Shown piece by piece: positions 1-49,608 of a stretch of DNA of 64,000 nt (positions are counted from its first letter, which is position 1; every line of letters begins with the position of its first letter). Both the position numbers and the translations under genes were made by a program. The stretch spans positions 4,345,315-4,409,314 of the forward strand of contig CM041199.1 of the NCBI GenBank assembly GCA_023078555.1. The letters are read 5' to 3'. The notes beneath the pieces were generated by a model that saw nothing but the letters and a program-made list of their open reading frames with translations, searched no databases and was not told the DNA's origin. The DNA comes from Ulva prolifera. Its lineage: Eukaryota; Chlorophyta; Ulvophyceae; Ulvales; Ulvaceae.

Positions 1-3000
1 TGTGGGGGCGTCGTCGCCGGGGGTGGCGCCGCCTGTGGGGGCGTCGTCGCCGGGGGTGGCGCCGCCTGTGGGGGCATCGTCACCTGGGGTGGCGCCACCT
101 GTGGGGGCGTCGTCGCCGGGGGTGGCGTCGCCTGGAGTGGTGTCCTCACCAGGAGTGGCGCCGCCTGTGGGGGCATCGTCGCCGGGGGTGGCGCCGCCTG
201 TGGGGGCGTCGTCGCCGGGGGTGGCGTCGCCTGGAGTGGTGTCCTCACCAGGAGTGGTGCCGCCTGTGGGGGCATCGTCGCCGGGGGTGGCGCCGCCTGT
301 GGGGGCGTCGTCGCCGGGGGTGGCGTCGCCTGGAGTGGTGTCCTCACCAGGAGTGGCGCCGCCTGTGGGGGCATCGTCGCCGGGGGTGGCGCCGCCTGTG
401 GGGGCATCGTCACCTGGGGTGGCGCCACCTGTGGGGGCGTCGTCGCCGGGGGTGGCGTCGCCTGGAGTGGTGTCCTCACCAGGAGTGGCGCCGCCTGTGG
501 GGGCATCGTCGCCGGGGGTGGCGCCGCCTGTGGGGGCGTCGTCGCCGGGGGTGGCGTCGCCTGGAGTGGTGTCCTCACCAGGAGTGGTGCCGCCTGTGGG
601 GGCATCGTCGCCGGGGGTGGCGCCGCCTGTGGGGGCGTCGTCGCCGGGGGTGGCGTCGCCTGGAGTGGTGTCCTCACCAGGAGTGGCGCCGCCTGTGGGG
701 GCATCGTCGCCGGGGGTGGCGCCGCCTGTGGGGGCATCGTCACCTGGGGTGGCGCCACCTGTGGGGGCGTCGTCGCCGGGGGTGGCGTCGCCTGGAGTGG
801 TGTCCTCACCAGGAGTGGCGCCGCCTGTGGGGGCATCGTCGCCGGGGGTGGCGCCGCCTGTGGGGGCGTCGTCGCCGGGGGTGGCGTCGCCTGGAGTGGT
901 GTCCTCACCAGGAGTGGTGCCGCCTGTGGGGGCATCGTCGCCGGGGGTGGCGCCGCCTGTGGGGGCGTCGTCGCCGGGGGTGGCGTCGCCTGGAGTGGTG
1001 TCCTCACCAGGAGTGGCGCCGCCTGTGGGGGCATCGTCGCCGGGGGTGGCGCCGCCTGTGGGGGCGTCGTCGCCGGGTGTGGCGCCGCCTGTGGGGGCGT
1101 CGTCGCCGGGGGTGGCGTCGCCTGGAGTGATGTCCTCACCAGGAGTGGCGCCGCCTGTGGGGGCGTCGTCGCCGGGGGTAGCGCCGCCTGTGGGGGCGTC
1201 GTCGCCGGGGGTGGCGCCGCCTGGAGTGGTGTCCTCACCAGGAGTGGCGCCGCCGGTGGGGGCGTCGTCGCCGGGGGTGGCGCCGCCTGTGAAGGCGTCG
1301 TCGCCGGGGGTCGCGCCGCCTGTGGGGGCATCGTCACCTGGGGTGGCGCCGCCTGTGGGGGCGTCGTCGCCGGGGGTGGCGCCGCCTGTGGGGGCGTCGT
1401 CACCTGTGGTGGCGCCACCTGTGGGGTCGTCGTCGCCGGGGGTGGCGTCGCCTGGAGTGGTGTCCTCACCAGGAGTGGCGCCGCCTGTGGGGGCATCGTC
1501 ACCTGGGGTGGCGCCACCTGTGGGGGCGTCGTCGCCGGGGGTGGCGTCGCCTGGAGTGGTGTCCTCACCAGGAGTGGCGCCGCCTGTGGGGGCATCGTCG
1601 CCGGGGGTGGCGCCGCCTGTGGGGGCGTCGTCGCCGGGGGTGGCGCCGCCTGGAGTGGTGTCCTCACCAGGAGAGGCGCCGCCTGTGGGGGCGTCGTCGC
1701 CGGGGGTGGCGCCGCCTGGAGTGGTGTCCTCACCAGGAGTGGCGCCACCTGTGGGGGCGTCGTCGCCGGGGGTGGCGTCGCCTGGAGTGGTGTCCTCACC
1801 AGGAGTGGCGCCGCCTGTGGGGGCATCGTCGCCGGGGGTGGCGCCGCCTGTGGGGGCGTCGTCGCCGGGGGTGGCGCCGCCTGGAGTGGTGTCCTCACCA
1901 GGAGTGGCGCCGCCTGTGGGGGCGTCGTCGCCGGGGGTGGCGTCGCCTGGAGTGGTGTCCTCACCAGGAGTGGCGCCGCCTGTGGGGGCATCGTCGCCGG
2001 GGGTGGCGCCGCCTGTGGGGGCGTCGTCGCCGGGGGTGTCGCCGCCTGTGGGGGCGTCTTCGCCGGGGGTGGCGCCGCCTGGAGTGGTGTCCTCACCAGG
2101 AGTGGCGCCACCTGTGGGGGCGTTGTCGCCGGGGGTGGCGTCGCCTGGAGTGGTGTCGTCACCAGGAGTGGCGCCGCCTGTGGGGGCATCGTCACCTGGG
2201 GTGGTGCCACCTGTGGGAGCGTCGTCGCCGGGGGTGGCGCCGCCTGGAGTGGTGTCCTCACCAGGAGTGGCGCCGCCTGTGGGGGCATCGTCGCCGGGGG
2301 TGGCGCCGCCTGTGGGGGCGTCGTCGCCGGGTGTGGCGCCGCCTGGAGTGGTGTCCTCACCAGGAGTGGCGCCGCCTGTGAGGACGTCGTCGCCGGGGGT
2401 GGCGTCGCCTGGAGTGGTGTCCTCACCAGGAGTGGCGCCGCCTGTGGGGGCATCGTCGCCGGGGGTGGCGCCGCCTGTGGGGGCGTCGTCGCCGGGTGTG
2501 GCGCCGCCTGTGGGGGCGTCGTCGCCGGGGGTGGCGTCGCCTGGAGTGATGTCCTCACCAGGAGTGGCGCCGCCTGTGGGGGCGTCGTCGCCGGGGGTAG
2601 CGCCGCCTGTGGGGGCGTCGTCGCCGGGGGTGGCGCCGCCTGGAGTGGTGTCCTCACCAGGAGTGGCGCCGCCGGTGGGGGCGTCGTCGCCGGGGGTGGC
2701 GCCGCCTGTGAAGGCGTCGTCGCCGGGGGTCGCGCCGCCTGTGGGGGCATCGTCACCTGGGGTGGCGCCGCCTGTGGGGGCGTCGTCGCCGGGGGTGGCG
2801 CCGCCTGTGGGGGCGTCGTCACCTGTGGTGGCGCCACCTGTGGGGTCGTCGTCGCCGGGGGTGGCGTCGCCTGGAGTGGTGTCCTCACCAGGAGTGGCGC
2901 CGCCTGTGGGGGCATCGTCACCTGGGGTGGCGCCACCTGTGGGGGCGTCGTCGCCGGGGGTGGCGTCGCCTGGAGTGGTGTCCTCACCAGGAGTGGCGCC

Positions 3001-6000: not shown

Positions 6001-9000
6001 GCCGCCTGTGGGGGCGTCGTCGCCAGGGGTGGCGCCGCCTGTGGGGGCGTCGTCGCCAGGGGTGGCGCCGCCTGTGGGGGCGTCGTCGCCGGGGGTGGCG
6101 CCGCCTGGAGTGGTGTCCTCACCAGGAGTGGCGCCGCCTGTGGGGGCGTCGTCGCCAGGGGTGGCGCCGCCTGTGGGGGCGTCGTCGCCAGCGGTGGCGC
6201 CGCCTGTGGGGGCGTCGTCGCCGGGGGTGGCGCCGCCTGGAGTGGTGTCCTCACCAGGAGTGGCGCCGCCTGTGGGGACATCGTCGCCGGGGGTGGCGCC
6301 GCCTGTGGGGGCGTCGTCGCCGGGGGTGGCGTCGCCTGGAGTGGTGTCCTCACCAGGAGTGGCGCCGCCTGTGGGGGCGTCGTCGCCGGGGGTGGCGTCG
6401 CCTGGAGTGGTGTCCTCACCAGGAGTGGCGCCGCCTGTGGGGGCATCGTCGCCGGGGGTGGCGCCGCCTGTGGGGGCATCGTCGCCGGGGGTGGCGTCGC
6501 CTGGAGTGGTGTCCTCACCAGGAGTGGCGCCGCCTGTGGGGGCATCGTCGCCGGGGGTGGCGCCGCCTGTGGGGGCGTCGTCGCCGGGGGTGGCGCCGCC
6601 TGTGGGGGCGTCTTCGCCGGGGGTGGCGTCGCCTGGAGTGGTGTCCTCACCAGGAGTGGCGCCGCCTGTGGGGGCGTCGTCGCCGGGGGTGGCGTCGCCT
6701 GGAGTGGTGTCCTCACCAGGAGTGGCGCCGCCTGTGGGGGCGTCGTCGCCGGGGGTGGCGTCGCCTGGAGTGGTGTCCTCACCAGGAGTGGCGCCGCCTG
6801 TGGGGGCGTCGTCGCCAGGGGTGGCGCCGCCTGTGGGGGCGTCGTCGCCAGGGGTGGCGCCGCCTGTGGGGGCGTCGTCGCCGGGGGTGGCGCCGCCTGG
6901 AGTGGTGTCCTCACCAGGAGTGGCGCCGCCTGTGGGGACATCGTCGCCGGGGGTGGCGCCGCCTGTGGGGGCGTCGTCGCCGGGTGTGGCGCCGCCTGTG
7001 GGGGCGTCGTCGCCGGGGGTGGCGCCGCCTGTGGGGGCGTCGTCGCCGGGGGTGGCGCCGCCTGTGGGGGCGTCTTCGCCGGGGGTGGCGCCGCCTGGAG
7101 TGGTGTCCTCACCAGGAGTGGCGCCGCCTGTGGGGGCGTCATCGCCGGGGGTGGCGCCGCCTGGAGTGGTGTCCTCACCAGGAGTGGCGCCGCCTGTGGG
7201 GACATCGTCGCCGGGGGTGGCGCCGCCTGTGGGGGCGTCGTCGCCGGGTGTGGCGCCGCCTGTGGGGGCGTCGTCGCCGGGGGTGGCGCCGCCTGTGGGG
7301 GCGTCGTCGCCGGGGGTGGCGCCGCCTGTGGGGGCGTCTTCGCCGGGGGTGGCGCCGCCTGGAGTGGTGTCCTCACCAGGAGTGGCGCCGCCTGTGGGGG
7401 CGTCATCGCCGGGGGTGGCGTCGCCTGGAGTGGTGTCCTCACCAGGAGTGGCGCCGCCTGTGGAGGCATCGCCGCCGGGGGTGGCGCCGCCTGTGGGGGC
7501 GTCGTCGCCGGGGGTGGCGCCGCCTGTGGGGGCGTCGTCGCCGGGGGTGGCGCCGCCTGTGGGGGCGTCGTCGCCGGGGGTGACGCCGCCTGTGGGGGCG
7601 TCGTCGCCGGGGGTGGCTCCGCCTGTGGGTGCACATCACTGACTTCAGCCATGTCTGATTGCCTGGTCACGTTCCAGCATCACACTGTTTTTTTCACGAT
7701 GACCGCAGTTGACCTACTCATCAGTGCCACTTTCTGTTTGCGCAAAGCTGCACCTCACACACTGAAGCACAGGTCAAGTAATCAACATTCGGTCATCCCA
7801 TCCCATTAGCACAGTCTTTTCTGAAACAGACTGTTCACTACGCAGGACATTGTCAAATGGTGCGTTGGCGGCAGCTCACCTGGTGGAGTGCCCGCATTAC
7901 CACCGTCTACATCCGTCGTCGGATTTCCTGCAGGCTCCGAATTCCCAGTGCCGCCAACTGATGGCTCATCGGGTTGCTGGGTGTTGCTGTCTGGCTCAGG
8001 TGGGTCTGGTGCAGTTGTACTGCCATCTGACGGCTCGCCATTCGGGGTGTCATTTGGGGGTGGATCATCCTCCAGCTGCTCATCTGCAATGGGCTGGAAC
8101 GTCAAAATTGACGGAGCTTGTGGAGGGGGTGTCTCAGAGACAAGTGGGGGGTCTTCCTGTTCCACGAAGCGTGGTGGCTGTGTTGGTGGCGGATCGCTAG
8201 GTGTCGGACTGCCGGTGTCTCCTGCGATGTATGGTGCCATTCACTCTGATGATTGTGCATTGTTGTACGAAAACATGGTCATCCTGTGGGTGCCAGCCGA
8301 AAAATCGAGACAGATGAGCAAATTGGTTCGTATTCATAACGGTGGAGACTGTGAACCGCCCATGGATGCCATGTGCCAGGAAACCGTCGTATTCGCTGAT
8401 GTCGTGTTTGATGAGAATTTTGCAGATAATGGTACCACTTCACAGTCTACATGCAATAGAAACTAACGTTCCAAAGGTGGACCTGGGGTGACGACCTTGC
8501 CAAGCGAATGTCTGTCCAGGAGCATTGCAATGATCAAGATGGGAGGGGATTTCCATCGCGACAATGCGATGAAATCTCATATCCACAATTGATTGCATTA
8601 TGAGCAATGCATTCAAATGTGAGCTGTGCTTCAGGGACAAAGTCATGCATATGGGTAGCGCCGTTGGGACGCTAGCCAACCAGCCTAGCCGGCTCATGAC
8701 TGCAGTGGTACAAGTGTAACGTTCAACAATGTGCAAGCAGAGCCGGACGCACCAGCTGGTCCGGCAGCTGTCGGGATGTTAGGGGTCGATGGAGCTTCGG
8801 AAGCTGCTGGATCGTCAGGATCTGGTGAATCGACAGTATCTGCCTCCTCTCCGTCTCCAGCAGCTTCTTCTAATGGTTGACCGGGCCCTACATACTGACC
8901 TGTTAAGTGCAAATATACAGTCAGTGTCTCAAGTGAAAGGACACAAATAACGTCATGCGCATCCTGCACAAGGAAATAGAGCAAGCTCGAATGTTGCCGA

Positions 9001-12000
9001 ATTTGTGCACATGCATGCATTTCTTAATATTGATCCAGTGATATGAAGTTTCGGGGTAATGGTGGGTATGTCGGTCCCAGGATATGTGGATATAGTGAAC
9101 ATCTGTGCTGCAGTGTGCGCTGCAGCCATGAGGGCTCACCGACCGAACCATCGGCGTCAATGAACCCACGGACAGCGCCAGGGGCGCCAGTGCCTGTAGG
9201 TGGGGGAGTGGTGGAAGGAGTAATGGTGGCCGGAGTGGCAGGTGTGCCAGCGGGCTCATCTACCACCTCCTCTGGCTCAGGATCACTGTCACCAGGCTCA
9301 GTGGGAGCTGCGCCAGTGGGTGGGGGATTGGTGGAAGGAGGAGTGGTGGCAGGAGGAGCGTCGGCCGGAGTGGCAGGTGTGCCAGCGGGCTCATCAACCA
9401 CCTCTGGCTCAGGATCGCTGTCGCCAGGCTCAGTGGGAGCTGTGCCAGTGGGTGGGGAATTGGTGGAAGCAGGAGTGGTGGAAGGAGGAGTGGTGGAAGG
9501 AGGAGTGGTGGAAGGAGGAGTGGTGGAAGGAGGATTGGCGGCCGGAGTGGCGGGTGTGCCAGCAGGCTCATTCACCACCTCCTCTGGCTCAGGATCGCTG
9601 TCACCAGGCTCAGTGGGAGCTGTGCCAGTGGGTGGGGGATTGGTGGAAGCAGGAGTGGTGGAAGGAGGAGTGGTGGAAGGAGGAGTGGTGGAAGGAGGAG
9701 TGGTGGCCGGAGTGGCAGGTGTGCCAGCAGGCTCATTCACCACCTCCTCTGGCTCAGGATCGCTGTCACCAGGCTCAGTGGGAGCTGTGCCAGTGGGTGG
9801 GGGATTGGTGGAAGCAGGAGTGGTGGAAGGAGGAGTGGTGGAAGGAGGAGTGGTGGAAGGAGGAGCGGTTGAAGGAGGAGTGGCGGCCGGAGTGGCAGGT
9901 GTGCCAGCGGACTCATCCACCACCTCCTCTGGCTCAGGATCACTGTCACCAGGCTCAGTGGGAGTTGTGCCAGTGGGTAGGGGATTGGTGGAAGGAGGAG
10001 TGGTGGAAGGAGGAGTGGTGGAAGGAGGAGTGGTGGCCGGAGTGGCAGGTGTGCCAGCAGGCTCATTCACCACCTCCTCTGGCTCAGGATCACTGTCTCC
10101 AGGCTCAGTGGGAGCTGTGCCAGTGGTTGGGGGATTGGTGGAAGGAGGAGTGGTGGCAGGAGGAGCGTCGGCCGGAGTGGCAGGTGTGCCAGCGGGCTCA
10201 TCAACCACCTCTGGCTCAGGATCGCTGTCGCCAGGCTCAGTGGGAGCTGTGCCAGTGGGTGGGGAATTGGTGGAAGCAGGAGTGGTGGAAGGAGGAGTGG
10301 TGGAAGGAGGAGTGGTGGAAGGAGGAGTGGTGGAAGGAGGATTGGCGGCCGGAGTGGCGGGTGTGCCAGCAGGCTCATTCACCACCTCCTCTGGCTCAGG
10401 ATCGCTGTCACCAGGCTCAGTGGGAGCTGTGCCAGTGGGTGGGGGATTGGTGGAAGCAGGAGTGGTGGAAGGAGGAGTGGTGGAAGGAGGAGTGGTGGAA
10501 GGAGGAGTGGTGGCCGGAGTGGCAGGTGTGCCAGCAGGCTCATTCACCACCTCCTCTGGCTCAGGATCGCTGTCACCAGGCTCAGTGGGAGCTGTGCCAG
10601 TGGGTGGGGGATTGGTGGAAGCAGGAGTGGTGGAAGGAGGAGTGGTGGAAGGAGGAGTGGTGGAAGGAGGAGCGGTTGAAGGAGGAGTGGCGGCCGGAGT
10701 GGCAGGTGTGCCAGCGGACTCATCCACCACCTCCTCTGGCTCAGGATCACTGTCACCAGGCTCAGTGGGAGTTGTGCCAGTGGGTAGGGGATTGGTGGAA
10801 GGAGGAGTGGTGGAAGGAGGAGTGGTGGAAGGAGGAGTGGTGGCCGGAGTGGCAGGTGTGCCAGCAGGCTCATTCACCACCTCCTCTGGCTCAGGATCAC
10901 TGTCTCCAGGCTCAGTGGGAGCTGTGCCAGTGGTTGGGGGATTGGTGGAAGGAGGAGTGGTGGAAGGAGGAGTGGTGGAAGGAGGAGTGGTGGCCGGAGT
11001 GGCAGGTGTGCCAGCAGGCTCATTCACCACCTCCTCTGGCTCAGGATCGCTGTCACCAGGCTCAGTGGGAGCTGTGCCAGTGGTTGGGGGATTGGTGGAA
11101 GGAGGAGTGGTGGAAGGAGGAGTGGTGGAAGGAGGAGTGGTGGAAGGAGGATTGGTGGAAGGAGGAGTGGTGGCAGGAGGAGTGTCGGCCGGAGTGGCAG
11201 GTGTGCCAGCGGGCTCATCTACCACCTCCTCTGGCTCAGGATCACTGTCTCCAGGCTCATTGGGAGCTGTGCCAGTGGTTGGGGGATTGGTGGAAGGAAG
11301 AGTGGTGGAAGCAGGAGTGGTGGAAGGAGGAGTGGTGGCCGGAGTGGCAGGTGTGCCAGCAGGCTCATTCACCACCTCCTCTGGCTCAGGATCGCTGTCA
11401 CCAGGCTCAGTGGGAGCTGTGCCAGTGGGTGGGGGATTGGTGGAAGCAGGAGTGGTGGAAGGAGGAGTGGTGGAAGGAGGAGTGGTGGAAGGAGGAGCGG
11501 TGGATGGAGGAGTGGTGGCAGGAGGAGTGGTGGAAGGAGGAGCGGTTGAAGGAGGAGCGGTTGAAGGAGGAGTGGTGGCCGGAGTGGCAGGTGTGCCAGC
11601 AGGCTCATCCACCACCTCCTCTGGCCCAGGATCGCTGTCACCAGGCTCAGTGGGAGCTGTGCCAGTGGTTGGGGGATTGGTGGAAGGAGGAGTGGTGGAA
11701 GGAGGAGTGGTGGAAGGAGGAGTGGTGGATGGAGGAGTGGTGGCAGGAGGAGTGGTGGAAGGAGGAGCGGTTGAAGGAGGAGCGGTTGAAGGAGGAGTGG
11801 CGGCCGGAGTGGCAGGTGTGCCAGCGGGCTCATCCACCACCTCCTCTGGCTCAGGATCACTGTCACCAGGCTCAGTGGGAGCTGTGCCAGTGGGTGGGGG
11901 ATTGGTGGAAGGAGGAGTGGTGGAAGGAGGAGTGGTGGAAGGAGGAGTGGTGGAAGGAGGATTGGCGGCCGGAGTGGCAGGTGTGCCAGCAGGCTCATCC

Positions 12001-18000: not shown

Positions 18001-21000
18001 ACCACCTCCTCTGGCTCAGCATCGCTGTCACCAGGCTCAGTGGGAGTTGTGCCAGTGGATGGGGGAGTGGTGGCAGGAGCAGTGGTGGAAGGAGGAGTGG
18101 TGGAAGGAGGAGTGGTGGAAGGAGGAGTGGTGTCCGGAGTGGCAGGTGTGCCAGCGGGCTCATCAACCACCTCCTCTGGCTCAGCATCGCTGTCACCAGG
18201 CTCAGTGGGAGTTGTGCCAGTGGGTGGGGGAGTGGTGGCAGGAGGAGTGGTGGCAGGAGGAGTAGCGGTCGGAGGAGAGGCGGCCGGAGTGGCAGGTGTG
18301 CCAGCGGGCTCATCAACCACCTCCTCTGGCTCAGCATCGCTGTCACCAGGCTCAGTGGGAGTGGTGCCAGTGGGTGGGGGAGTGGTGGCAGGAGGAGAGG
18401 TGGCAGGAGGAGTGGCGGCCGGAGGAGTGGCGGCCGGAGTGGAAGGTGTGCCAGCGGGCTCATCAACCACCTCCTCTGGCTCAGCATCGCTGTCACCAGG
18501 CTCAGTGGGAGTTGTGCTCGTGGGTGGGGGAGTGGTGGCAGGAGGAGTGGTGGCAGGAGGAGTGGCGGCCGGAGGAGTGGCGGCCGGAGTGGAAGGTGTG
18601 CCAGCGGGCTCATCCACCACCTCCTCTGGCCCAGGATCGCTGTCACCAGGCTCAGTGGGAGCTGTGCCAGTGGTTGGGGGATTGGTGGAAGGAGGAGTGG
18701 TGGAAGGAGGAGTGGTGGAAGGAGGAGTGGTTGCAGGAGGAGTGGTGGAAGGAGGAGCGGTTGAAGGAGGAGTGGCGGCCGGAGTGGCAGGTGTGCCAGC
18801 GGGCTCATCCACCACCTCCTCTGGCTCAGGATCGCTGTCACCAGGCTCAGTGGGAGCTGTGCCAGTGGGTGGGGGATTGGTGGAAGGAGGAGTGGTGGAA
18901 GAGGGAGTGGTGGCAGGAGGAGTGGTGGCAGGAGGAGTGGTGGAAGGAGGAGCGGTTGAAGGAGGAGTGGCGGCCAGAGTGGCAGGTGTGCCAGCGGGCT
19001 CATCCACCACCTCCTCTGGCTCAGGATCACTGTCACCAGGCTCAGTGGGAGCTGTGCCAGTGGGTGGGGGATTGGTGGAAGGAGGAGTGGTGGAAGGAGG
19101 AGTGGTGGAAGGAGGATTGGCGGCCGGAGTGGCAGGTGTGCCAGCAGGCTCATCCACCACCTCCTCTGGCCCAGGATCGCTGTCACCAGGCTCAGTGGGA
19201 GCTGTGCCAGTGGGTGGGGGATTGGTGGAAGCAGGAGTGGTGGAAGGAGGAGTGGTGGAAGGAGGAGTGGTGGAAGGAGGAGTGGTGTCCGGAGTGGCAG
19301 GTGTGCCAGCGGGCTTATCCACCACCTCCTCTGGCCCAGGATCGCTGTCACCAGGCTCAGTGGGAGTTGTGCCAGTGGGTGGGGGAGTGGTGGCAGGAGG
19401 AGTGGTGGCAGGAGGAGTGGTGGCAGGAGGAGTGGCGGCCGGAGTGGAAGGTGTGCCAGCGGGCTCATCAACCACCTCCTCTGGCTCAGCATCGCTGTCA
19501 CCAGGCTCAGTGGGAGTTGTGCCAGTGGGTGGGGGAGTGGTGGCAGGAGGAGTGGTGGAAGGAGGAGTGGTGGAAGGAGGAGTGGTGGAAGGAGGAGTGG
19601 TGTCCGGAGTGGCAGGTGTGCCAGCGGGCTCATCAACCACCTCCTCTGGCTCAGCATCGCTGTCACCAGGCTCAGTGGGAGTTGTGCCAGTGGGTGGGGG
19701 AGTGGTGGCAGGAGGAGTGGTGGCAGGAGGAGTAGCGGTCGGAGGAGAGGCGGCCGGAGTGGCAGGTGTGCCAGCGGGCTCATCAACCACCTCCTCTGGC
19801 TCAGCATCGCTGTCACCAGGCTCAGTGGGAGTTGTGCCAGTGGGTGGAGGAGTGGTGGCAGGAGGCGTGGTGGAAGGAGGAGTGGCGGCCGGAGGAGTGG
19901 CGGCCGGAGTGGCAGGTGTGCCAGCGGGCTCATCAACCACCTCCTCTGGCTCAGCATCGCTGTCACCAGGCTCAGTGGGAGTTGTGCTCGTGGGTGGGGG
20001 AGTGGTGGCAGGAGGAGTGGCGGCCGGAGGAGTGGCGGCCGGAGTGGAAGGTGTGCCAGCGGGCTCATCAACCACCTCCTCTGGCTCAGCATCGCTGTCA
20101 CCAGGCTCAGTGGGAGTTGTGCCAGTGGGTGGGGGAGTGGTGGCAGGAGGAGTGGTGGCAGGAGGAGCGGCGGCCGGAGGAGTGGCGGCCGGAGTGGAAG
20201 GTGTGCCAGCGGGCTCATCAACCACCTCCTCTGGCTCAGCATCACTGTCACCAGGCTCAGTGGGAGTTGTGCCAGTGGGTGGTGGAGTGGTGGCAGGAGG
20301 AGTGGTGGCAGGAGGAGTGGCGGCCGGAGGAGTGGCGGCCGGAGTGGAAGGTGTGCCAGCGGGCTCATCAACCACCTCCTCTGGCTCAGCATCGCTGTCA
20401 CCAGGCTCAGTGGGAGTTGTGCCCGTGGGTGGGGGAGTGGTGGCAGGAGGAGTGGTGGCAGGAAGAGTGGCGGCCGGAGGAGTGGCGGCCGGAGTGGAAG
20501 GTGTGCCAGCGGGCTCATCAACCACCTCCTCTGGCTCAGCATCGCTGTCACCAGGCTCAGTGGGAGTTGTGCCAGCGGGTGGGGGAGTGGTGGCAGGAGG
20601 AGTGGTGGCAGGAGGAGTGGCGGCCGGAGGAGTGGCGGCCGGAGTGGAAGGTGTGCCAGCGGGCTCATCAACCACCTCCTCTGGCTCAGCATCACTGTCA
20701 CCAGGCTCAGTGGGAGTTGTGCCAGTGGGTGGTGGAGTGGTGGCAGGAGGAGTGGTGGCAGGAGGAGTGGTGGCAGGAGGAGTGGCGGCCGGAGGAGTGG
20801 CGGCCGGAGTGGAAGGTGTGCCAGCGGGCTCATCAACCACCTCCTCTGGCTCAGCATCGCTGTCACCAGGCTCAGTGGGAGTTGTGCTCGTGGGTGGGGG
20901 AGTGGTGGCAGGAGGAGTGGTGGCAGGAGCTGTGGTGGCAGGAGGAGTGGCGGCCGGAGGAGTGGCGGCCGGAGTGGCAGGTGTGCCAGCGGGCTCTGCA

Positions 21001-24000
21001 ACCACCTCCTCTGGGTCAGCATCGCTGTCACCAGGCTCAGTGGGAGTTGTGCCAGTGGGTGGGGGAGTGGTGGTAGGAGGAGTGGTCACAGTGGGTGGGG
21101 GTGCTGCCTGCTCAATTGGTTCGGTTGGTGTGGGGGTGGCATCGCTTTGTTCCGGCTCTGAGGCGGTGGGGGGCACAGCTGGCGGTGCTGCCTGCTCAAT
21201 TAGTTCGGTTGGTGTGGGGCTAGCATCGCTTTGTTCCGGCTCTGAGGCGGTGGGGGGCACAGCTGGCGGTGCTGCCTGCTCAATTGGTTCGGTTGGTGTG
21301 GGGCTAGCATCGCTTTGTTCCGGCTCTGAGGCGGTGGGGGGCACAGCTGGCGGTGCTGCCTGCTCAATTGGTTCGGTTGGTGTGGGGCTAGCATCGCTTT
21401 GTTCCGGCTCTGAGGCGGTGGGGGGCACAGCTGGCGGTGCTGCCTGCTCAATTGGTTGGGTTGGTGTGGGGCTAGCATCGCTTTGTTCCGGCTCTGAGGC
21501 GGTGGGGGCCACGGCTGGCGGTGCTGCCTGCTCGTTTAATTCGGTTGGTGTGGGGGAAGCATCGCTTTGTTCGGGCCCTGAGCCTGTGGGGGGAATGCCT
21601 GGCGGTAATGCCTGCTCGATTGGTCCAGCTGGTGTAGGTGCTGCGTCGTTCGGTAATGGCTCGGCATCGAATGGGGGCACGGCTGGCGGTGCTGCCTGCT
21701 CAATTGGCTCACCTGGTGCAGGCGCTCCGATGTTCTCTGCTTGCTCGGGCACTGTCAGAGGAACAGCCGCTGGTGGTGCCTGTTCGTCTGGCCCAGCTGG
21801 TGCAGGTGGTGATGCAAGACTAGTGGGCACAGGTTCTGAAACAGGGTCAAGTGCAGCACTGGGTGGCTGTGCTGCTTGCTGAGGCACACCGATCGGCGAT
21901 GCTGGTGATGGCTGGCCTGCTGCAGATGGCTCGATCTGGCCGGGAGGCTGCACAGCCACCGGGGCAGAAGCATCTGCAGTTAGCGATTCTGATGTCAACA
22001 CAAGCATTTGGTCGTGGTACTAGCCGCTGGTGCTTGCGGCGATTCTGCCACCGGCCTTGGCAACACGTCGTTCTCAGCATGTTATTGCCGTTGTCTGTGC
22101 CGCAGTCGCCCGCACAGACCCGCCCTGATGACGGTGCCTGTGGTGCTACATGAACTAATGCATTTGCTGTACTCAAAATCACTAATGGTGTCGTTGGTGA
22201 TGCTGGCGAGTTGCTGCTCACCCGCCCCTGCTTTGGGGCCTGGCTCGTGTTGAGTGCAGAGGCGCCCGCCAGAGTTGAAAGCGTTTTGTGCCTTGCATGC
22301 TGTGTCTGATCCCAATGTCAGGGTTATCATGATTCAGCAGATATCAATATGTGACCGTGCATACATAGATGCATACAATACGTACAACGTCTCTACAGAA
22401 ATCTCCTGAACCTGGGTGCAATGAATCACGATCAAGTACAAGCTGGCTACTGTTCTGACGCAGTTTCGTGCTCAGTTTTGTGTACTGTGATACGTACATT
22501 GCTCAAGGTACACGCGTTGATCATCTGCAGAAGAATGATTGTGGGTGTGTTTCTACAAATGATGGCAAAGCCTCCGGATCACCATGTAACCTAGAATCAA
22601 CCAGTGAACGTTCCACCTAAGTATTCACCTTCACTCACTGGGACGTTAACTATTCTGGAGTCCGGTAGCGGGCGAGGAAAGCTACAGTAGGTTCCTGCTG
22701 TCAACTGTCAGTATCTGAGCCTAGCACTATGCTAACGACTTCAATAGTTTTGCTCATTATGTTTATATTTATGATCATTACTTTCTTGTCAGCAAGTGCT
22801 GGAGCGCAGCTGCGCACAGTCACTCAGCCGAGTGCGCAGTGGCCGAGGTGTAGGTCATTTACCAATTACAGGGATGCTTCTGGTGGTATACATCATAGTT
22901 GTGCACATCTAAGTTCACGTGGGGAAATGCAGCACAGCTATCCCATAGCGTTTCAGGTCCATCAAGGCCTACAGACCACACGACAAAATTGTTGACAATA
23001 CTTACTAGGCTGAGCTGAGGAATGCCAGAAACTCACCTCTGGCCACTTGGCTTACGCGTGGCATGTTTGTAGCATGTACATATATTTGTGGGCACAAATA
23101 TTAAGGATAATGTTCGTGGCGCCACTGTATATGGTCGTGTTGCGCCCGGGCTAGGCTTGACCTTTGCAGCTGTGTCTGAAACGCCGTAATTCAAGTGTCT
23201 GCGATTGATGATCCGCAAACCATAAGCAAACCCAAACAAATATATGCATTATCTGGTACAAGCACACATAAAAAAAATTCGATGCTGATCGGGAATGTTC
23301 ACGGCGCTACTGTCTGGACAACCAGTGACATGTGATGTATCACTGAACATGCAGCGTAACGGAAATGACCCCAGCACAAAATGAGCCACAACTTCCGAGA
23401 CCAAACAAATGTAGGTATAGCAAGCCCGGAAGTGATGTATAGTGTCAGGGCAGTGGAAATACCGCCTTGAACAGCCTCACTTACTGTAATGCACTGTACA
23501 TATGTGACAACAATGGCAACAAGCGGCATTAGAGGTACTGTGCATGTGAAACAATGGACAACAGGCATAAATCTCGATGTAATAATTGATGACATTGTGC
23601 TGGGCAGCTGAATAGTGTGCCATATTATGTGATGCATCCTGGATCATACAAAATACACGACTTGCAATCATGCAGTAACTCATAGCATAGGCCATTGGAA
23701 GTGAGCGGCTCGTATATGCAATCACCAGTGTCTGCATGCTTCCTACAATTGTTCTGACAGGCAAGGATTCAGGCCGCACCATCGTCTACGCCTGGACCTG
23801 CTGGCTGTTCTGGTTGCTCGCCCTGGGACGGCTCCGCTTGCCCGAGGCTCGGCTGCTCGCCGATAGGTGGGGCAGGAGCCGGGTTTGGCTGCTGGCCGCC
23901 TTGTGGCGGGCTGGCTGGATCAACGGGGTCACCTGCATCTGGGGCTGGAGACTCAGGCGAGGTGCCTGAAGGCGATGCGGCTGGGGGCGTGACTGCAGGG

Positions 24001-27000
24001 GGTATTGATGCGGCTGGGGGCGTGACTGCAGGGGGTATTGATGCGGCCGGTGGTGATGCAGGTGTGCTTGCCGTGGGCTGGGTTGCCGGTGTGTTTGGTG
24101 GTCTGCTGTCCTCTGGGTCTGGAGCAGCTGCTGTTGGGCCTGCAGGCTGGCCAGTGAGAAGTGTTGGTGCGGTTGTGGGTGATGGTGGGTCAGACGGCAT
24201 GTCGCTTGGAGCTAATGCTGGTGCAAGTGATGGAGGAGCTGCTGTGGGCTCAGCTGGTGTCTGTGCTGTTGGGTCGGTCGGGGTGTCAGGTAGATCCGCT
24301 GGAAGCCCAGCTGATGGCTCAGCTGGCGGCTCTGTGGCTGATTCAGTGGGCGATTCGGCTGGAGGACCAGCAGGCGGCTCTGCTGGTGGCCCTGCTGGTG
24401 ACTCAACAGGAGGATCGATCTGCTCCACTGGGGTGGCTGCTGGTTCATCGGTGGGAGGATCAGAAGATGGCTGGGATGGCGGCACGGCTGGAGGCATAGC
24501 AGGAAGATCGGCAGGAGGCCCGGTAGGAGGGCCGGCCGGCAGCTCAGCTGGTGGCGCTGCTGGTGGACTGGCAGAGGGATCCGCGGGCTCCTCTGCTGGT
24601 GGCTCTGCAGGAGATTCTGAACGAGGATCTGAAGGTGGCTCTGCTGGTGGAGCGGCTGGTGACTCGATGGGAGGATTGTCCGGCACTTGCGCTGGTGAAG
24701 CTGCTGGTGAATTTCCAGGAGGATCTGCCGGCGCATCTGCTGGTGGCTCTCCCGGTGTTTCGGCAGGAGGATCTGAAGGTGGCTCAGATGGTGGAGCGGC
24801 TGGTGGTTCGCTGGGAGGGCTGGCCGGCAGCTCAGCTGGTGGCGCTGCTGGTGGACTGGCAGAGGGATCCGCGGGCTCCTCTGCTGGTGGCTCTGCAGGA
24901 GATTCTGAACGAGGATCTGAAGGTGGCTCTGCTGGTGGAGCGGCTGGTGACTCGATGGGAGGATTGTCCGGCACTTGCGCTGGTGGAGCTGCTGGTGAAT
25001 TTCCAGGAGGATCTGCCGGCGCATCTGCTGGTGGCTCTCCCGGTGTTTCGGCAGGAGGATCTGAAGGTGGCTCAGATGGTGGAGCGGCTGGTGGTTCGCT
25101 GGGAGGGCTGGCCGGATCTTCCGCTGGTGGCACTGCTGGTGGACTGGCAGAGGGATCCGCGGGCTCCTCTGCTGGTGGCTCTGCAGGAGATTCTGAAGGA
25201 GGATCTGAAGGTGGCTGTGCTGGTGGAGCGGCTGGTGACTCGATGGGAGGACCGTCCGGCACTTGTGCTGGTGGAGCTGCTAGTGGATTGCCAGGAGGAT
25301 CTGCCGGCGCATCTGCTGATGGCTCTCCCGGTGTTTCGGCAGGAGGATCTGAAGGTGGCTCAGCTGGTGGGGCGGCTGGTGGTTCGCTGGGAGGGCCGGC
25401 CGGATCTTCCCCTGGTGGTGCTGCTGGTGTCTCGGAAGGAACACTAGCGGTCGGCTCGACAGGTGGCTCAGCTGGTGGCTCTGCTGGTGGACCGACTGGG
25501 CGCTGAGCTGGCACCTGATCTAGTAGCTGAGGTGGCGGCACGGCCGGAGACACTGCTGGTGGATCGGCTAGTGGGGAAGAGGGGAGCTCACCTGGAGTAT
25601 CAGGAAGGGGCTGTGTCGGCAGAATGGCTGCTGGCTCGTTCGGCGACTCCGCCTGTGGCGCAGCCGGCAGTGCGGCCGGTAGCTCGGAGGACGGCTCAGA
25701 CGGCGGCTCTGCTGATGGTTCTGCCGGCGGCTCCGTAGGTGGCTCAGTGGGCGGCGCTGCTGGTGGCTGCGCTGGCAGCACCGCTGATGGCTCCGCTGGT
25801 GGTTCGACGGGTGGCTCTGCTGGTGGCTGTGCAGGGGGCACTGCTGGTGGATCAGCAGGAGGCTCTGTTGGTGGTGCCGCTGGTGGCTGCACTGGTGCCT
25901 GAGCAGGGGGCACTGCTGGTGGCTCCGCCGGCGATTCCACGGGCGGCTCTGTTGATGGATCAGCAGGAAGCTCTGCTGGCGGCTGTGCGGGTGGCTGCGC
26001 AGAGAGCACTGCAGGTGGCTCCGCCGGCGGTTCCACGGGTGGCTCAGCTGGTGGCTCAGCCGGGGGTTCTGCGGGTGGCTCAGCTGGTGACTCAGCTGGT
26101 GGCTCAGCTGGTGACTCAGCTGGTGGCTCAGCTGCTGGCTCGGCAGGCGGCTCAGCTGGTGGCTCAGCTAGTGGCTCAGCCGGGGGTTCTGTGGGTGGCT
26201 CAGCTGGTGGCTGCGCTGGTGGCTCAGCTGGTGGCTCAGATGGTGGCTCAGCTGGCGGCACCACAGGAGGCTCTGCTGGTGGCTCCGCAGGGGGTTCTGC
26301 GGGTGGCTCTGCTGGTGGCTCAGCTGGTGGCTCAGATGGTGGCTCAGCTGGTGGCTCAAATGGTGGCTCAGCTGGCGACTCGGCAGGCGGCTCAGCTGGT
26401 GGAGCAGCTGGTGGCTCAGATGGTGGATCAGCTGGTGGCTGGGCAGGCGGTTGCGCTGGTGGCTCGGCTGGTGGCTCAGCCGGGGGTTCAGCGGGTGGCT
26501 CAGCCGGTGGTTCTGCGGGTGGCTCAGCCGGGGGTGCTGCGGGTGGCTCAGCTGGTGGCTCAGCTGGTGGCTCGGCTGGTGGCTCAGCTGGTGGCTCAGC
26601 TGGTGGCTCGGCAGGCGGCTCAGCTGGTGGCTCAGCTGGTGGCTCGGCAGGCGGCTCAGCTGGTGGCTCAGATGGTGACTCAGATGGTGGCTCAGCCGGC
26701 GGCTCCGAAGGAGGCTCTGCTGGTGGCTCTGCCGGCGGTTCTGCAGGCGGTGCCGCTGGTGGATCCGCCGGAGGCTCTGCTGGAGGCTCAGCTGGTGGCT
26801 CCGCAGGGGGTTCTGCGGGTGGCTCGGCAGGCGGCTCAGCTGGTAGCTCAGCTGGTGGCTCAGCTGGTGGCTCAGCTGGTGGCTCAGCTGGCAGCTGCGC
26901 AGGAGGCACTGCTGGTGGCTCCGCCGGCGGCTGTGCGGGTGGCTCAGCTGGTGGCTCCGCTGGTGGCTCAGCTGGTGGCTCAGCTGGTGGCTCGGCAGGC

Positions 27001-29650
27001 GGCTCGGCTGGCGGCTCAGCTGGTGGCTCGGCAGGCGGCTCGGCTGGTGGCTCAGCTGGTGGCTCAGCTGGCGGCTGCGCAGGAGGCACTGCTGGTGGCT
27101 CAGATGGTGGCTCAGCTGGTGGCTCCGCAGGAGGCTCCGCTGGTGGCTCCGCCGGCGGCTGTGCGGGTGGCTCCGCTGGTGGCTCAGCTGGTGGCTCAGC
27201 TGGTGGCTCCGCTGGTGGCTCAGCTGGTGGCTCAGCTGGTGGCTCGGCAGGCGGCTCGGCTGGCGGCTCAGCTGGTGGCTCGGCAGGCGGCTCGGCTGGT
27301 GGCTCAGCTGGTGGCTCAGCTGGCGGCTGCGCAGGAGGCACTGCTGGTGGCTCAGATGGTGGCTCAGCTGGTGGCTCCGCAGGAGGCTCCGCTGGTGGCT
27401 CCGCCGGCGGCTGTGCGGGTGGCTCCGCTGGTGGCTCAGCTGGTGGCTCAGCTGGTGGCTCGGCTGGTGGCTCAGCTGGTGGCTCTGCAGGGGGCGCTGC
27501 AGGAGGCTCCGCTGGTGGCTCCGCTGGTGGCTCCGCCGGCGGCTGTGCGGGTGGCTGCGCTGGTGGCTCAGCTGGTGGCTCGGCTGGTGGCTCGGCTGGT
27601 GGCTCAGCTGGTGGCTCTGCAGGGGGCTCAGCTGGTGGCTCGGCTGGTGGCTCGGCTGGTGGCTCGGCTGGTGGCTCAGCTGGTGGCTCTGCAGGGGGCG
27701 CTGCTGGTGGCTCAGCTGGTGGCTCAACTGGTGGCTCAGCTGGTGGCTCAGCTGGTGGCTCAGCTGGTGGCTCAGATGGTGGCTCCGCTGGTGGCTCCGC
27801 TGGTGGCTCAGCTGGTGGCTCAGCTGGTGGCTCGGCAGGCGGCACAGCTGGTGGCTCGGCAGGTGGCTCAGCTGGTGGCTCAGCCGGGGGTTCTGAGGGT
27901 GGTTCAGCTGGTGGCTCCGCTGGTGGCTCAGCTGGTGGCTCAGCTGGTGGCTCAGATGGTGGCTCAGCTGGCGGCACCGCAGGAGGCTCTGCTGGTGGCT
28001 CCCCAGGGGGTTCTGCGGGTGGCTCTGCTGGTGGCTCAGATGGTGGCTCAGCTGGTGGCTCAGCTGGTGGCTCAGATGGTGGCGCAGCCGGCGGCTCTGA
28101 AGGAGGCTGTGCTGGTGGCTCGGCAGGCGGTTCTGCAGGCGGTGCCGCTGGTGGATCAGCTGGAGGCTCTGCTGGAGGCTCTGCTGGTGGCTCAGCTGGT
28201 GGCTCCGCAGGGGGTGCTGCGGGTGGCTCAGAGGGTGGCTCCGCTGGTGGCTCCGCTGGTGGCTCAGCTAGTGGCTGTTCAGGCGGCTCAGCTGGTGGCT
28301 CAGCTGGTGGCTCAGCCGGGGGTTCTGCTGGTGGCTCAGCTGGTGGCTCAGCTGGTGTCTCAGCTGGTGTCTCAGCCGGGGATTCTGCAGGTGTTTCTGC
28401 TGGAGGTACTGCCGGTGGCTCAGCCGGGGGTTCTGAGGGTGGCTCGGCCGGTGGTTCTGCTGGAAGTTCAGCAGGTGGCTCGGCTGGTATTTCAGTGGAT
28501 ACCTCGGAAGGCGGTTGTGCTGGTGGGTCAGAGGGTGTGTCAGAGTCTGTGTTTGTTGTGTCTGGGTTGGTGTCTGATGTGCTGCCAGTGTCTGCACTGT
28601 CTGGGTCATCAGCAGCAGGTGGTGTGTTGTCATCAGCACCCACTACACAGAATTCATGACTCAGGCTCCAGTTGCCCAGATCATGTGGATGTGAGCAGTG
28701 ATGAACTTTGTCACACAAGTGCATGTTCATTGTGTCGTTCCTGTGCATGAGGAAGATTGTGGCGGTGGTGCCATAGCTTCGGATCCAGAGCATGTGCCAG
28801 TGTGTGAACGCAATGGCAGCTGCCGTCAGACGATGACATACCTGTCTCGCTGGACGTCTCGTCTACGTCGTCCGAGCCGTCTTCTACATCTCCTGACACA
28901 GGTGCGCCCTCTGAGTCCTCCCCGGAATCCTCTGCACAGTGCCACATTTCAACATAATTGCTACTTTGTCATTTCAGGTGCAGGCAAATACCTACAGGTT
29001 CCGAGCTCCTCGCACAGCAGTGTGCTGCCCGCAGTGATTGTGCCTCGACACAGCATGCCCAGCCCATATCATGAACACACGTGCGGATCACAGATTCATG
29101 AGGGGATCCGCTGTAGCTCTATCTTGAGAACGATGTCAAAAGTTGCTGACATATAGCGCCCAGCAGCGAATGTAGCAGCAACTGAAGGTCCCATAGCAGC
29201 GCGGCTTGTTTAGCAAGGAGCTGAACAACAGGCCGCCCCCCACAGTGCGGACACATCTGCCGTGCTCTCCTACCCCATTGCAACGTTCTCTATGGCTGGG
29301 GTGGAGGGGTGACATGCACACTCGTTGAGGGGGGCGACTGAGCGCCGTCGGCCATGAGCATGAGGCGTGTGGTCGCGGGCAGCATTTTATGTTTGTCAAG
29401 CATTCGCACCGTCGATGACATCCTCGACGACATCGTCCAAGCCTCCAGTAAGTCCTGGAACTGCTGGAAGATTTGGGAGCTGAAACAACGATCGTCGCCA
29501 TGAAGAAAGCAGCCGGCCTGCAATTGAGACCTCTGCATCCCCGCGAAGCGCTCTGCGAGGCCCAAGTACGCTCGCGTTCTCATCCGCGACGCGAGCTTCA
29601 GCAAACGCCGAGGTCAGAAGGAGTACGCAAGCCCATTGGAGCGGGCGCAT
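1..29650 (-). CDS. Giant secreted acidic Pro/Thr-rich repeat protein (partial, 3' end beyond window)
   Basis: Seven exons joined by eye: 29650-29410, 28931-28842, 28642-23780, 21973-9140, 8899-8753, 8221-7880 and 7622 to the window edge, giving 26,139 coding bases (8,713 codons) with no stop. Donors are GTGCGA, GTATGT, GTGCGG, GTGAGC, GTGCGT and GTGAGC, and every acceptor ends in AG. All six introns are phase 1, and the frame stays open through each join. The first ATG (29650) begins a signal peptide, [19 protein letters not shown]. An Asp/Glu linker follows, then AEPP repeats (exon 3), 28-residue and Thr/Pro repeats with acidic [15 protein letters not shown] cores (exon 4), two short acidic Pro-rich exons, and an 11-residue [11 protein letters not shown] repeat (exon 7). 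I infer a secreted, probably O-glycosylated wall or matrix protein resembling algal hydroxyproline-rich glycoproteins. No globular domain or named family is recognised. The exon 3 to 4 intron (1,806 bases) may hide another exon. Splicing needs RNA evidence, and two or more genes cannot be excluded. Confidence 0.75.
60..1065 (-). repeat. 330-base higher-order repeat, three tandem copies
   Basis: Blocks of ten 33-base units repeat at a 330-base offset. For example, the variant unit carrying GGAGTGGTGCCGCC recurs at about 254, 584 and 914, and the block boundary near 121 recurs at 451 and 781. The third copy diverges at about 1066. Because 330 is a multiple of three, the minus-strand frame is kept. 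Confidence 0.85.
1075..3009 (-). repeat. 1,419-base offset segmental duplication inside the 33-base array
   Basis: A rare variant block (a GAT variant in the spacer unit near 1129, a GTGAAGG variant near 1290 and a GTCACCTGTGG variant near 1400) recurs in the same order near 2548, 2709 and 2819, at an offset of 1,419 bases (43 units). The copies span roughly 1075-1590 and 2494-3009. Confidence 0.8.
3121..4440 (-). repeat. 660-base higher-order repeat, two tandem copies
   Basis: Positions 3121-3780 and 3781-4440 look identical by eye, including the rare GGGGACGTC variants at about 3172 and 3832. The copies diverge right after 4440. The offset is 20 units of 33 bases. Confidence 0.85.
9260..10873 (-). 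repeat. 807-base tandem segmental duplication in the Thr/Pro array
   Basis: The block 9260-10066 is repeated at 10067-10873 with matching landmarks: the deletion variant CAACCACCTCTGGC, the CCAGCGGACTCATCC variant and the GGGTAGGGG variant all recur 807 bases later. The offset is 269 codons, so the frame is kept. Confidence 0.85.
11024..13873 (-). repeat. 1,425-base tandem segmental duplication in the Thr/Pro array
   Basis: The block 11024-12448 recurs at 12449-13873 almost without change. The rare CTCATTGGGAG variant is at 11256 and 12681, and one visible substitution lies near 11207/12632 (CCAGCGGG against CCATCGGG). The offset is 475 codons. Near identity implies a recent event or ongoing gene conversion. 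Confidence 0.85.
21104..21640 (-). repeat. 84-base (28-residue) tandem repeats near the start of exon 4
   Basis: Five to six tandem units encode [20 protein letters not shown] followed by SPTPTEPI on the minus strand. Divergence increases toward 21640. They lie between the unique N-terminal part of exon 4 and the Thr/Pro array. Confidence 0.85.
22222..22305 (-). other. Possible extra symmetric exon in the 1.8-kb intron
   Basis: A strong donor (GTGAGC, intron starting at 22221) follows an open segment in the right phase. With an acceptor at the CAG ending at 22306, it would give an 84-base phase 1-1 exon whose peptide ends in [10 protein letters not shown] and contains two cysteines. Inserting it between exons 3 and 4 keeps the frame. 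The acceptor has a weak pyrimidine tract, so this is only a candidate. Confidence 0.25.
22729..22995 (+). other. Short plus-strand reading frame with a signal-like N-terminus
   Basis: The 88-codon frame begins [20 protein letters not shown] and continues SASAGAQ, which resembles a secretory signal with an Ala-x-Ala cleavage site, followed by a basic, Cys-containing stretch. It lies antisense inside the long intron of the giant gene. I recognise no family, and chance is a fair explanation. Confidence 0.15.
24265..25430 (-). repeat. 288-base (96-residue) coding repeats in exon 3
   Basis: Three tandem units start near 24553, 24841 and 25129 (exactly 288 bases apart). Each encodes a Pro-rich segment with the landmarks [16 protein letters not shown] and [14 protein letters not shown]. 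The first two are nearly identical and the third is more diverged. They form the C-terminal third of exon 3, with less regular Pro-rich sequence on either side. Confidence 0.8.
25900..28480 (-). repeat. 12-base AEPP microrepeat array
   Basis: On the minus strand the array encodes hundreds of residues of [12 protein letters not shown] tetrapeptides, with one charged residue per four. On the plus strand it reads [10 protein letters not shown], also without stops for 822 codons. The minus-strand choice follows from the splice sites at 28643 and 23779. Alternating Pro-Pro-Ala-Glu would favour an extended polyproline II rod, which is an inference. Confidence 0.85.
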
Positions 29651-48912: not shown

Positions 48913-49608
48913 GTTTGCGCCCAGGCGTGCATCAACTTAGACTCAGGCGCTGCAGCTGAGGATCTGTGCAGAGCGATTAACGGTTACACTACCTCTGCCT
49001 GCAGTATCGTATCCTTGATAGTATTATCTTGCCGCTCCGTGTGTCTGTAGCTCCATGTTTGTGCACCGATCACCCATGCCCCCTGTTCGCGCAGCTTGTT
49101 GCTGGCGTGGCTTCAGTGCAGCAGCCCCAAATAGTTACATCCGTGCATAACGTGAATGCAACGCAATGCTGAAGATATAGTATGCCGTACGGGCCAGCCG
49201 ACCTATGTTGATAGATAGATCCACGTATGTTCACCAGTAAAGTTGCGGAACAATCGTAACTGTGCAGTCGCACTGTTTATGCAGTGCAAGCGCCACTGTC
49301 ATTTGACGTTTCCGCAAGGCACTTGGCCATGCGAAAATGCACTGCCGTACCACCACCATTAAACATGCTAAATATGCTATATGTTCATGAAGCGAAAATT
49401 TTCAAGCACATTTCGTCCGCCACGGCGCGCAGGTGCGACGACGGGCCAGTTGCAAGTAAGCGCATGTGGAACTACACCGCAAACACAGCAAATCTCTGAG
49501 CCAAAATCAGGCCATTCGGAACCCGCTACCAGTATCAATATCATTCATTGCAAGCACTATCATGTGAGCTCCAGTATTGTGCAGGGGTAGGGGCACAGTG
49601 CTTGCCCG
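48913..49608. other. Shared upstream region of two divergent genes
   Basis: These 696 bases separate the elongase start (minus) from the proposed helicase start (plus), so they should contain both promoters and 5' untranslated regions. I see no clear TATA box, motif array or small gene. Confidence 0.45.

Follow-up and report, generated by a model that had tools for sequence, protein, structure and literature searches.

In animals, transmembrane mucins combine a signal peptide, a giant Pro/Thr/Ser repeat region, one helix and a cytoplasmic tail. The shaft of the Chlamydomonas sexual agglutinin, SAG1, is proline-rich. Cleavage soon after synthesis separates its N-terminal agglutinin from C65, an integral-membrane piece (PMC4362204). 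Chlamydomonas MST3, which forms the axis of the mastigoneme, has 8,572 residues, a likely signal peptide, 42 repeats and a PKD-like membrane domain; its N-terminal proline-rich rod points outward, its serial repeats act as a spacer or ruler, and a C-terminal membrane part leads to an intracellular C-terminus (PMC11015965). The same study reports that Lys can inhibit proline hydroxylation, and that it is absent from the MST1 helix and the MST3 N-terminus (PMC11015965). Extensins are characterised by the pattern Ser-Pro3-5 or Tyr-X-Tyr (PMC4769139).

Here we describe a locus of Ulva prolifera predicted to encode a giant surface protein. The window, meaning the whole stretch of 64,000 nucleotides analysed, covers positions 4,345,315-4,409,314 of contig CM041199.1 in an 88.9-Mb, 44-contig genome, and 40 kb of leftward flank was also read. 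In the partly available literature on giant proline-rich or mucin-like algal membrane proteins and on agglutinins, we recognised no description of this protein.

A twelve-exon model on the minus strand

The minus-strand model comprises 12 exons. It opens with a signal peptide (29650), includes three giant repeat exons, then reaches a hydrophobic helix and a tail of ~380 residues, and ends at a stop at window -4748 (L009:5252), 4.7 kb outside the window. The predicted product has 9,651 residues and a mass of ~910 kDa before modification. The features are listed below in order of transcription; L009 is the stretch to the left of the window, given in minus-strand coordinates (L009:9421 is window -579).

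29410..29650, minus strand: exon 1, with start codon, signal peptide (hydrophobic core in the hydropathy scan) and a short stretch with several Arg
28842..28931, minus strand: exon 2, 30 residues, 13 of them Asp/Glu; alternative acceptors possible (modelled joins rank 2 and 6)
23780..28642, minus strand: exon 3, 1,621 residues, PAEPP-type rod, 41.6% Pro, 258 PxxPP units
21974..23779, minus strand: intron 3, 1,806 nt, the weakest join inside the window and a possible gene boundary
9140..21973, minus strand: exon 4, 4,278 residues, 60 acidic EVVxEPAGTP cores with variable runs of STTPP-type pentads between them
8753..8899, minus strand: exon 5, acidic linker of 49 residues; modelled splice pairs first-ranked on both sides
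7880..8221, minus strand: exon 6, Pro/Asp-rich linker of 114 residues
7622 to window -579 (L009:9421), minus strand: exon 7, array of 11-residue units, 2,734 residues in all, ending at a GTAAGC donor
L009:8862-8119, minus strand: exon 8, acidic, 248 residues
L009:7758-7549, minus strand: exon 9, very acidic, 70 residues, 34% Asp/Glu
L009:7049-6828, minus strand: exon 10, hydrophobic helix VLAVAIVLAAAAVACIIGSTLAVFL, then VRKR
L009:6548-6227, minus strand: exon 11, Gly/Ser-rich
L009:5990-5252, minus strand: exon 12, Gly/Ser-rich, stop at its end

An earlier sequence-only reading of the window had proposed a signal peptide at 29650 joined to three giant minus-strand repeat exons, encoding an acidic repeat protein of at least 8,700 residues. 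All of this is borne out: the giant exons are exons 3, 4 and 7, an ATG stands at 29650, and exons 1 to 7 hold 8,713 coding residues within the window. The size, acidity and module layout were also correctly described, and the two peptide types that it cited are real, being the 11-residue unit of exon 7 and the EVVxEPAGTP core of exon 4. Its statement that the chain runs off the window without a stop is true inside the window but not beyond it. Leftward extension to the C-terminus, which it had recommended, revealed five more exons, the helix, the tail and the stop. We think it likely that the full 12-exon chain is a single gene, presumably read as a single transcript, and are considerably surer that exons 4-12, including the helix, form one unit.

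Several other open frames lie nearby. On the plus strand, the frame at window 43966-44955 contains a WD40 match above cut-off (PF00400); the THOC3 beta-propeller model gives its best E-value, although the match falls short of the curated cut-off for this model. Plus-strand frames of the UvrD/REP helicase type at window 49591-58951 (PF00580 in two, PF13361 in a third) probably belong as exons to a single neighbouring helicase gene. Downstream of the giant gene, a minus-strand frame of 1,914 residues (L010:2223-7964) has no Pfam match, and neither has a 433-residue minus-strand frame with a signal-like hydrophobic stretch near its start (L012:7659-8957).

Coding signal, strand and splice joins

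Apart from the final stop, the sense frame alone stays open across all 12 exons. Exon 4 has no stop in 4,278 sense codons, compared with 23 and 300 in the other two sense-strand frames; in exon 3 these other frames hold 7 and 130. These counts speak against a chance open frame in the giant exons. On the opposite strand no frame is open in exons 1, 3, 4, 5, 8 or 12, and the three antisense frames of exon 3 contain 8, 45 and 4 stops. One antisense frame is entirely open in exon 7 and is interrupted by just one stop in exon 4, so that openness alone does not fix the strand in these two exons.

The repeats themselves also carry a coding signal. The period is a multiple of three in all 49 tandem-repeat rows, and in each of the four unit sets codon position 2 of the sense frame varies least from copy to copy. 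For codon positions 1, 2 and 3, the variation values are 0.09, 0.08 and 0.51 in exon 3 (218 units), 0.12, 0.05 and 0.27 in exon 7 (248 units), 0.14, 0.06 and 0.19 in the exon 4 pentads (313 units), and 0.10, 0.04 and 0.09 in the 60 acidic cores of exon 4, where position 3 is not the highest. In exon 4, neighbouring copies compared at periods of 15, 84 and 150 showed no third-position excess. The synonymous-to-nonsynonymous ratio of the antisense against the sense frame is 1.22 vs 0.90 in exon 7 and 2.49 vs 2.41 in exon 3; the antisense frame with these equal or higher ratios shares the third positions of the sense frame. The codon-position tests therefore support coding, though in exons 3 and 7 they are also compatible with the opposite strand. 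As the antisense frame scores equally or higher, the strand call rests on the exon chain, the signal peptide and the helix, and not on the codon tests.

Non-coding satellite arrays that are open by chance, or coding on the plus strand, could also be invoked, given that long plus-strand open frames exist and that the antisense frame is open or nearly so in exons 7 and 4. We regard this as very improbable, since it has to contend with the stops in every antisense frame of exon 3, the repeat periods, the conserved second codon position and the presence of both a signal peptide and a helix on the minus-strand chain.

For each join, frame-compatible GT-AG pairs nearby were scored, with the open frames taken as given. 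The splice matrix was a generic one, drawn from general knowledge and not fitted to this genome, and the exon chain had initially been chosen by eye, which biases the exercise towards success. The top-scoring pair is of phase 1 at 10 of the 11 joins, and the last join favours phase 2. At five joins (4-5, 5-6, 7-8, 8-9 and 9-10) the very pair used in the model comes first. It ranks 2, 6, 4, 4 and 3 at joins 1-2, 2-3, 3-4, 6-7 and 10-11, where the top pair has the same donor and a different acceptor. The exon 11-12 join is loose (modelled pair 47th of 106), and its residues are uncertain because a donor 3 bases away scores higher.

Intron 3 is the weakest link, and could separate two genes. One would encode a secreted PAEPP protein from exons 1-3 and stop at 23769; the other would start within intron 3 and encode a giant membrane protein from exons 4-12. 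TGTAA is a green-algal polyadenylation word, and intron 3, the longest of the 11, holds one at 22870; a hydrophobic frame with a GTAAGT donor begins within it, at an ATG at 23568. That donor, however, is of phase 0 by eye, whereas the modelled exon 4 acceptor is of phase 1, as are all four of the best exon 3-4 pairs (the modelled pair ranks 4 of 22). Composition is also alike on both sides, being acidic with 0.25% and 0.07% K+R. Two adjacent genes seem rather unlikely to us. TGTAA occurs in introns 9 and 10 as well (-2731 and -3299), and the first one past the final stop lies ~1,080 bases on. A possible phase 1 mini-exon in intron 3, seen by eye only (window 22222-22305, minus strand; GATCAG acceptor, GTGAGC donor), carries Lys, Cys and His, unlike the remaining outer part.

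Upstream of exon 1, an ATG at window 30309 (minus strand) opens a short frame with a GTAAGA donor after TATAAATA, by eye a possible upstream exon; were it spliced into a longer exon 1, the signal peptide would be buried. Near the start there is one sense-strand TATAAAW, at 30361 (38 kb scanned, 0.28 expected in shuffles), which is too weak to use.

Modules, charge and the predicted membrane anchor

The outer part of the predicted protein (residues 25-9240, ~9,216 residues) is dominated by P (2,581), T (1,680), A (1,310) and G (1,028). Asp and Glu account for 1,532 residues (D 813, E 719), or 16.6%, with only 2 K and 21 R and no Cys, resulting in a computed pI of 4.05 and a charge of about -1,506 at pH 7. 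Exon by exon, K+R is 0.25% (exon 3), 0.07% (exon 4), 0% (exon 7), 0.6% (exons 5-6) and 2.0% (exon 8). The scarcity of Lys (2 in 9,216) fits the report that this residue can hinder proline hydroxylation (PMC11015965). Two N-glycosylation sequons are present in the outer part, and O-glycosylation of the predicted product is plausible.

Each giant exon has its own unit. In exon 3, AE fills 151 of the 258 PxxPP units, and the non-Pro residues of the rod are mainly A, E and S. In exon 4 the length of 57 of the 59 core spacings, in residues, is divisible by five, a pattern expected from gain and loss of entire STTPP-type pentads. Repeat rows of equal score lie 1,425 bases apart in this exon (11089-11184 and 12514-12609; 11434-11800 and 12859-13225), and a further pair lies 807 bases apart (9325-10036 and 10132-10843). 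The rows in window 9325-13225 are probably recent internal duplications, and exon 4 may therefore vary in length between strains. Exon 7 consists of ~248 units of 11 residues, the two commonest variants being present in 100 and 64 copies. A polyproline II helix extends by 0.31 nm per residue, at which the maximal span is ~503 nm for exon 3 and at most ~2,858 nm for the outer part; full extension is likely for the Pro-dense part only.

The hydrophobic helix comprises 25 residues (9244-9268), with a best 19-residue mean hydropathy of 2.73. No further segment of the outer part exceeds the hydropathy threshold used, and a weaker hydrophobic stretch lies in the tail (9542-9565, mean 1.44). The 379-residue tail is rich in Gly, Ser and Ala, and contains 5.3% K+R against 0.25% over the outer part. 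The two hallmarks of a type I membrane protein, an N-terminal signal peptide (judged from hydropathy and by eye) and one later helix, are both predicted. The orientation of the helix rests on the signal peptide, because the basic residues in the 25 positions on either side (4 outside, 3 inside) lend no support from the positive-inside rule. The predicted topology is that of a protein that is probably type I rather than secreted. The sequence-only reading had called the protein secreted. This is most likely an error that arose from the position of the window edge, since the anchor lies beyond it.

A membrane precursor could nevertheless be cleaved close to the bilayer, releasing the acidic giant to act as a shed protein in the wall or mucilage. 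SAG1 offers a precedent (PMC4362204), and here an acidic exon followed by an RR pair at 9233-9234 adjoins the helix, although a cleavage site is beyond what sequence can establish. We treat this reading, which overlaps with the membrane-tethered one, as possible but short of probable.

A candidate surface bristle and its relation to known proteins

Sequence searches placed the protein in no family. Pfam searches at E 0.1 returned no match for nine exon pieces (9,257 of the 9,651 residues), nor for four further pieces (joined exons 1-2, 5-6 and 8-12, and the rest of exon 7). The Pherophorin domain (PF12499) was not detected in the protein, and none was found in the genome in a search that had no positive control. 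When the last 497 residues were compared with the organism's own genome (E up to 1, 8 candidates scored), all four matches were exons of this gene, and no second copy of the anchor and tail was found; against the PDB, the same residues gave two matches at chance level only (best E 3.2). As for the genome at large, there are 38 exon matches to the chlorophyll a/b-binding (light-harvesting) family, and one such protein aligns over its length with structurally solved chlorophyll a-b binding proteins, which we take from their names to be green-lineage LHCII; a green-algal host is therefore almost certain. The RuBisCO large subunit was not found in the genome, as expected if the plastid genome is not included.

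PKD_channel matches occur at 5 places in the genome, and the giant protein has the size class and layout of MST3, so that a mastigoneme-like axis, with the length of the ciliary hair set by repeat number, deserves mention. With no PKD domain found in the protein, and repeats that are not of the P13/P11(XXP)3 type, we judge such a role improbable.

The explanation that we prefer, at slightly better than an even chance, is that one gene encodes a membrane-tethered, polyanionic, hydroxyproline-rich type I glycoprotein of ~9,650 residues that forms a bristle. The open exons, the modules, the charge and the predicted signal peptide and helix are features of the sequence itself. The signal peptide would direct the product into the secretory pathway, and the single helix near the C-terminus would hold it in the membrane, with ~9,200 residues facing outward in three serial modules and the tail towards the cytoplasm. 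Outermost would be the stiff PAEPP rod, followed by STTPP pentad runs with acidic cores and, nearest the membrane, a flexible spacer of 11-residue repeats. Hydroxylated, O-glycosylated proline helices would give stiffness and reach (~2.9 micrometres at most, in the fully extended state). With ~1,500 negative charges net, the protein could retain water and cations, and either keep surfaces apart or link polymers of the wall or mucilage via calcium. The single transcript, the glycosylation, the topology, the extension and the role as a spacer or matrix linker are inferred.

More tentatively, and with rather less confidence, the protein could represent a new class of algal surface polymer, a single-molecule polyanionic bristle of more than 1 micrometre with a one-helix anchor, in which three separately homogenised modules set stiffness, charge and length. 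If so, a polypeptide would be doing what sulfated or uronic polysaccharides do elsewhere. Should the predicted protein itself prove real, it would be as large as MST3, more simply anchored and strongly biased in charge, and so a clear-cut case for testing how giant green-algal surface proteins encode length, stiffness and charge; its tail, if intracellular, could readily be tagged.

How, then, does the predicted protein compare with those already described? It shares the four-part layout of animal transmembrane mucins, but its outer part has no Cys and no Pfam domain and it belongs to a different lineage, so that any likeness is convergent at most. Like the hydroxyproline-rich glycoproteins (extensins, arabinogalactan proteins and GP1), it has a signal peptide, simple repeats of Pro with A, S or T and probable O-glycosylation; typical members of this group are far smaller. 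It is also very acidic. None of its repeat units follows the extensin pattern of Ser-Pro3-5 or Tyr-X-Tyr (PMC4769139). As in SAG1, a large outer polypeptide is encoded together with a C-terminal membrane piece; SAG1, in contrast, is cleaved and serves gamete adhesion (PMC4362204).

The absence of a nameable family, claimed in the sequence-only reading, thus stands as far as sequence matches go, but in layout there is a close analogue in MST3. A second study reportedly gives an MST3-like protein the name Mstax. Both proteins are giant, with a likely signal peptide, an outward N-terminal proline rod whose non-Pro residues are mainly A, E and S, serial repeats, a C-terminal membrane part and, by prediction in the Ulva protein, an intracellular C-terminus (PMC11015965). 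The Ulva protein differs in having one helix, with no PKD-like domain detected, and in carrying PAEPP, STTPP with acidic cores and 11-residue repeats in place of the 42 P13/P11 repeats reported for MST3. We do not class it as MST3, because it has neither the PKD domain nor P13/P11(XXP)3 repeats. By analogy, it may nonetheless share the MST3 principle of a long, stiff, glycosylated polypeptide tethered to the membrane.
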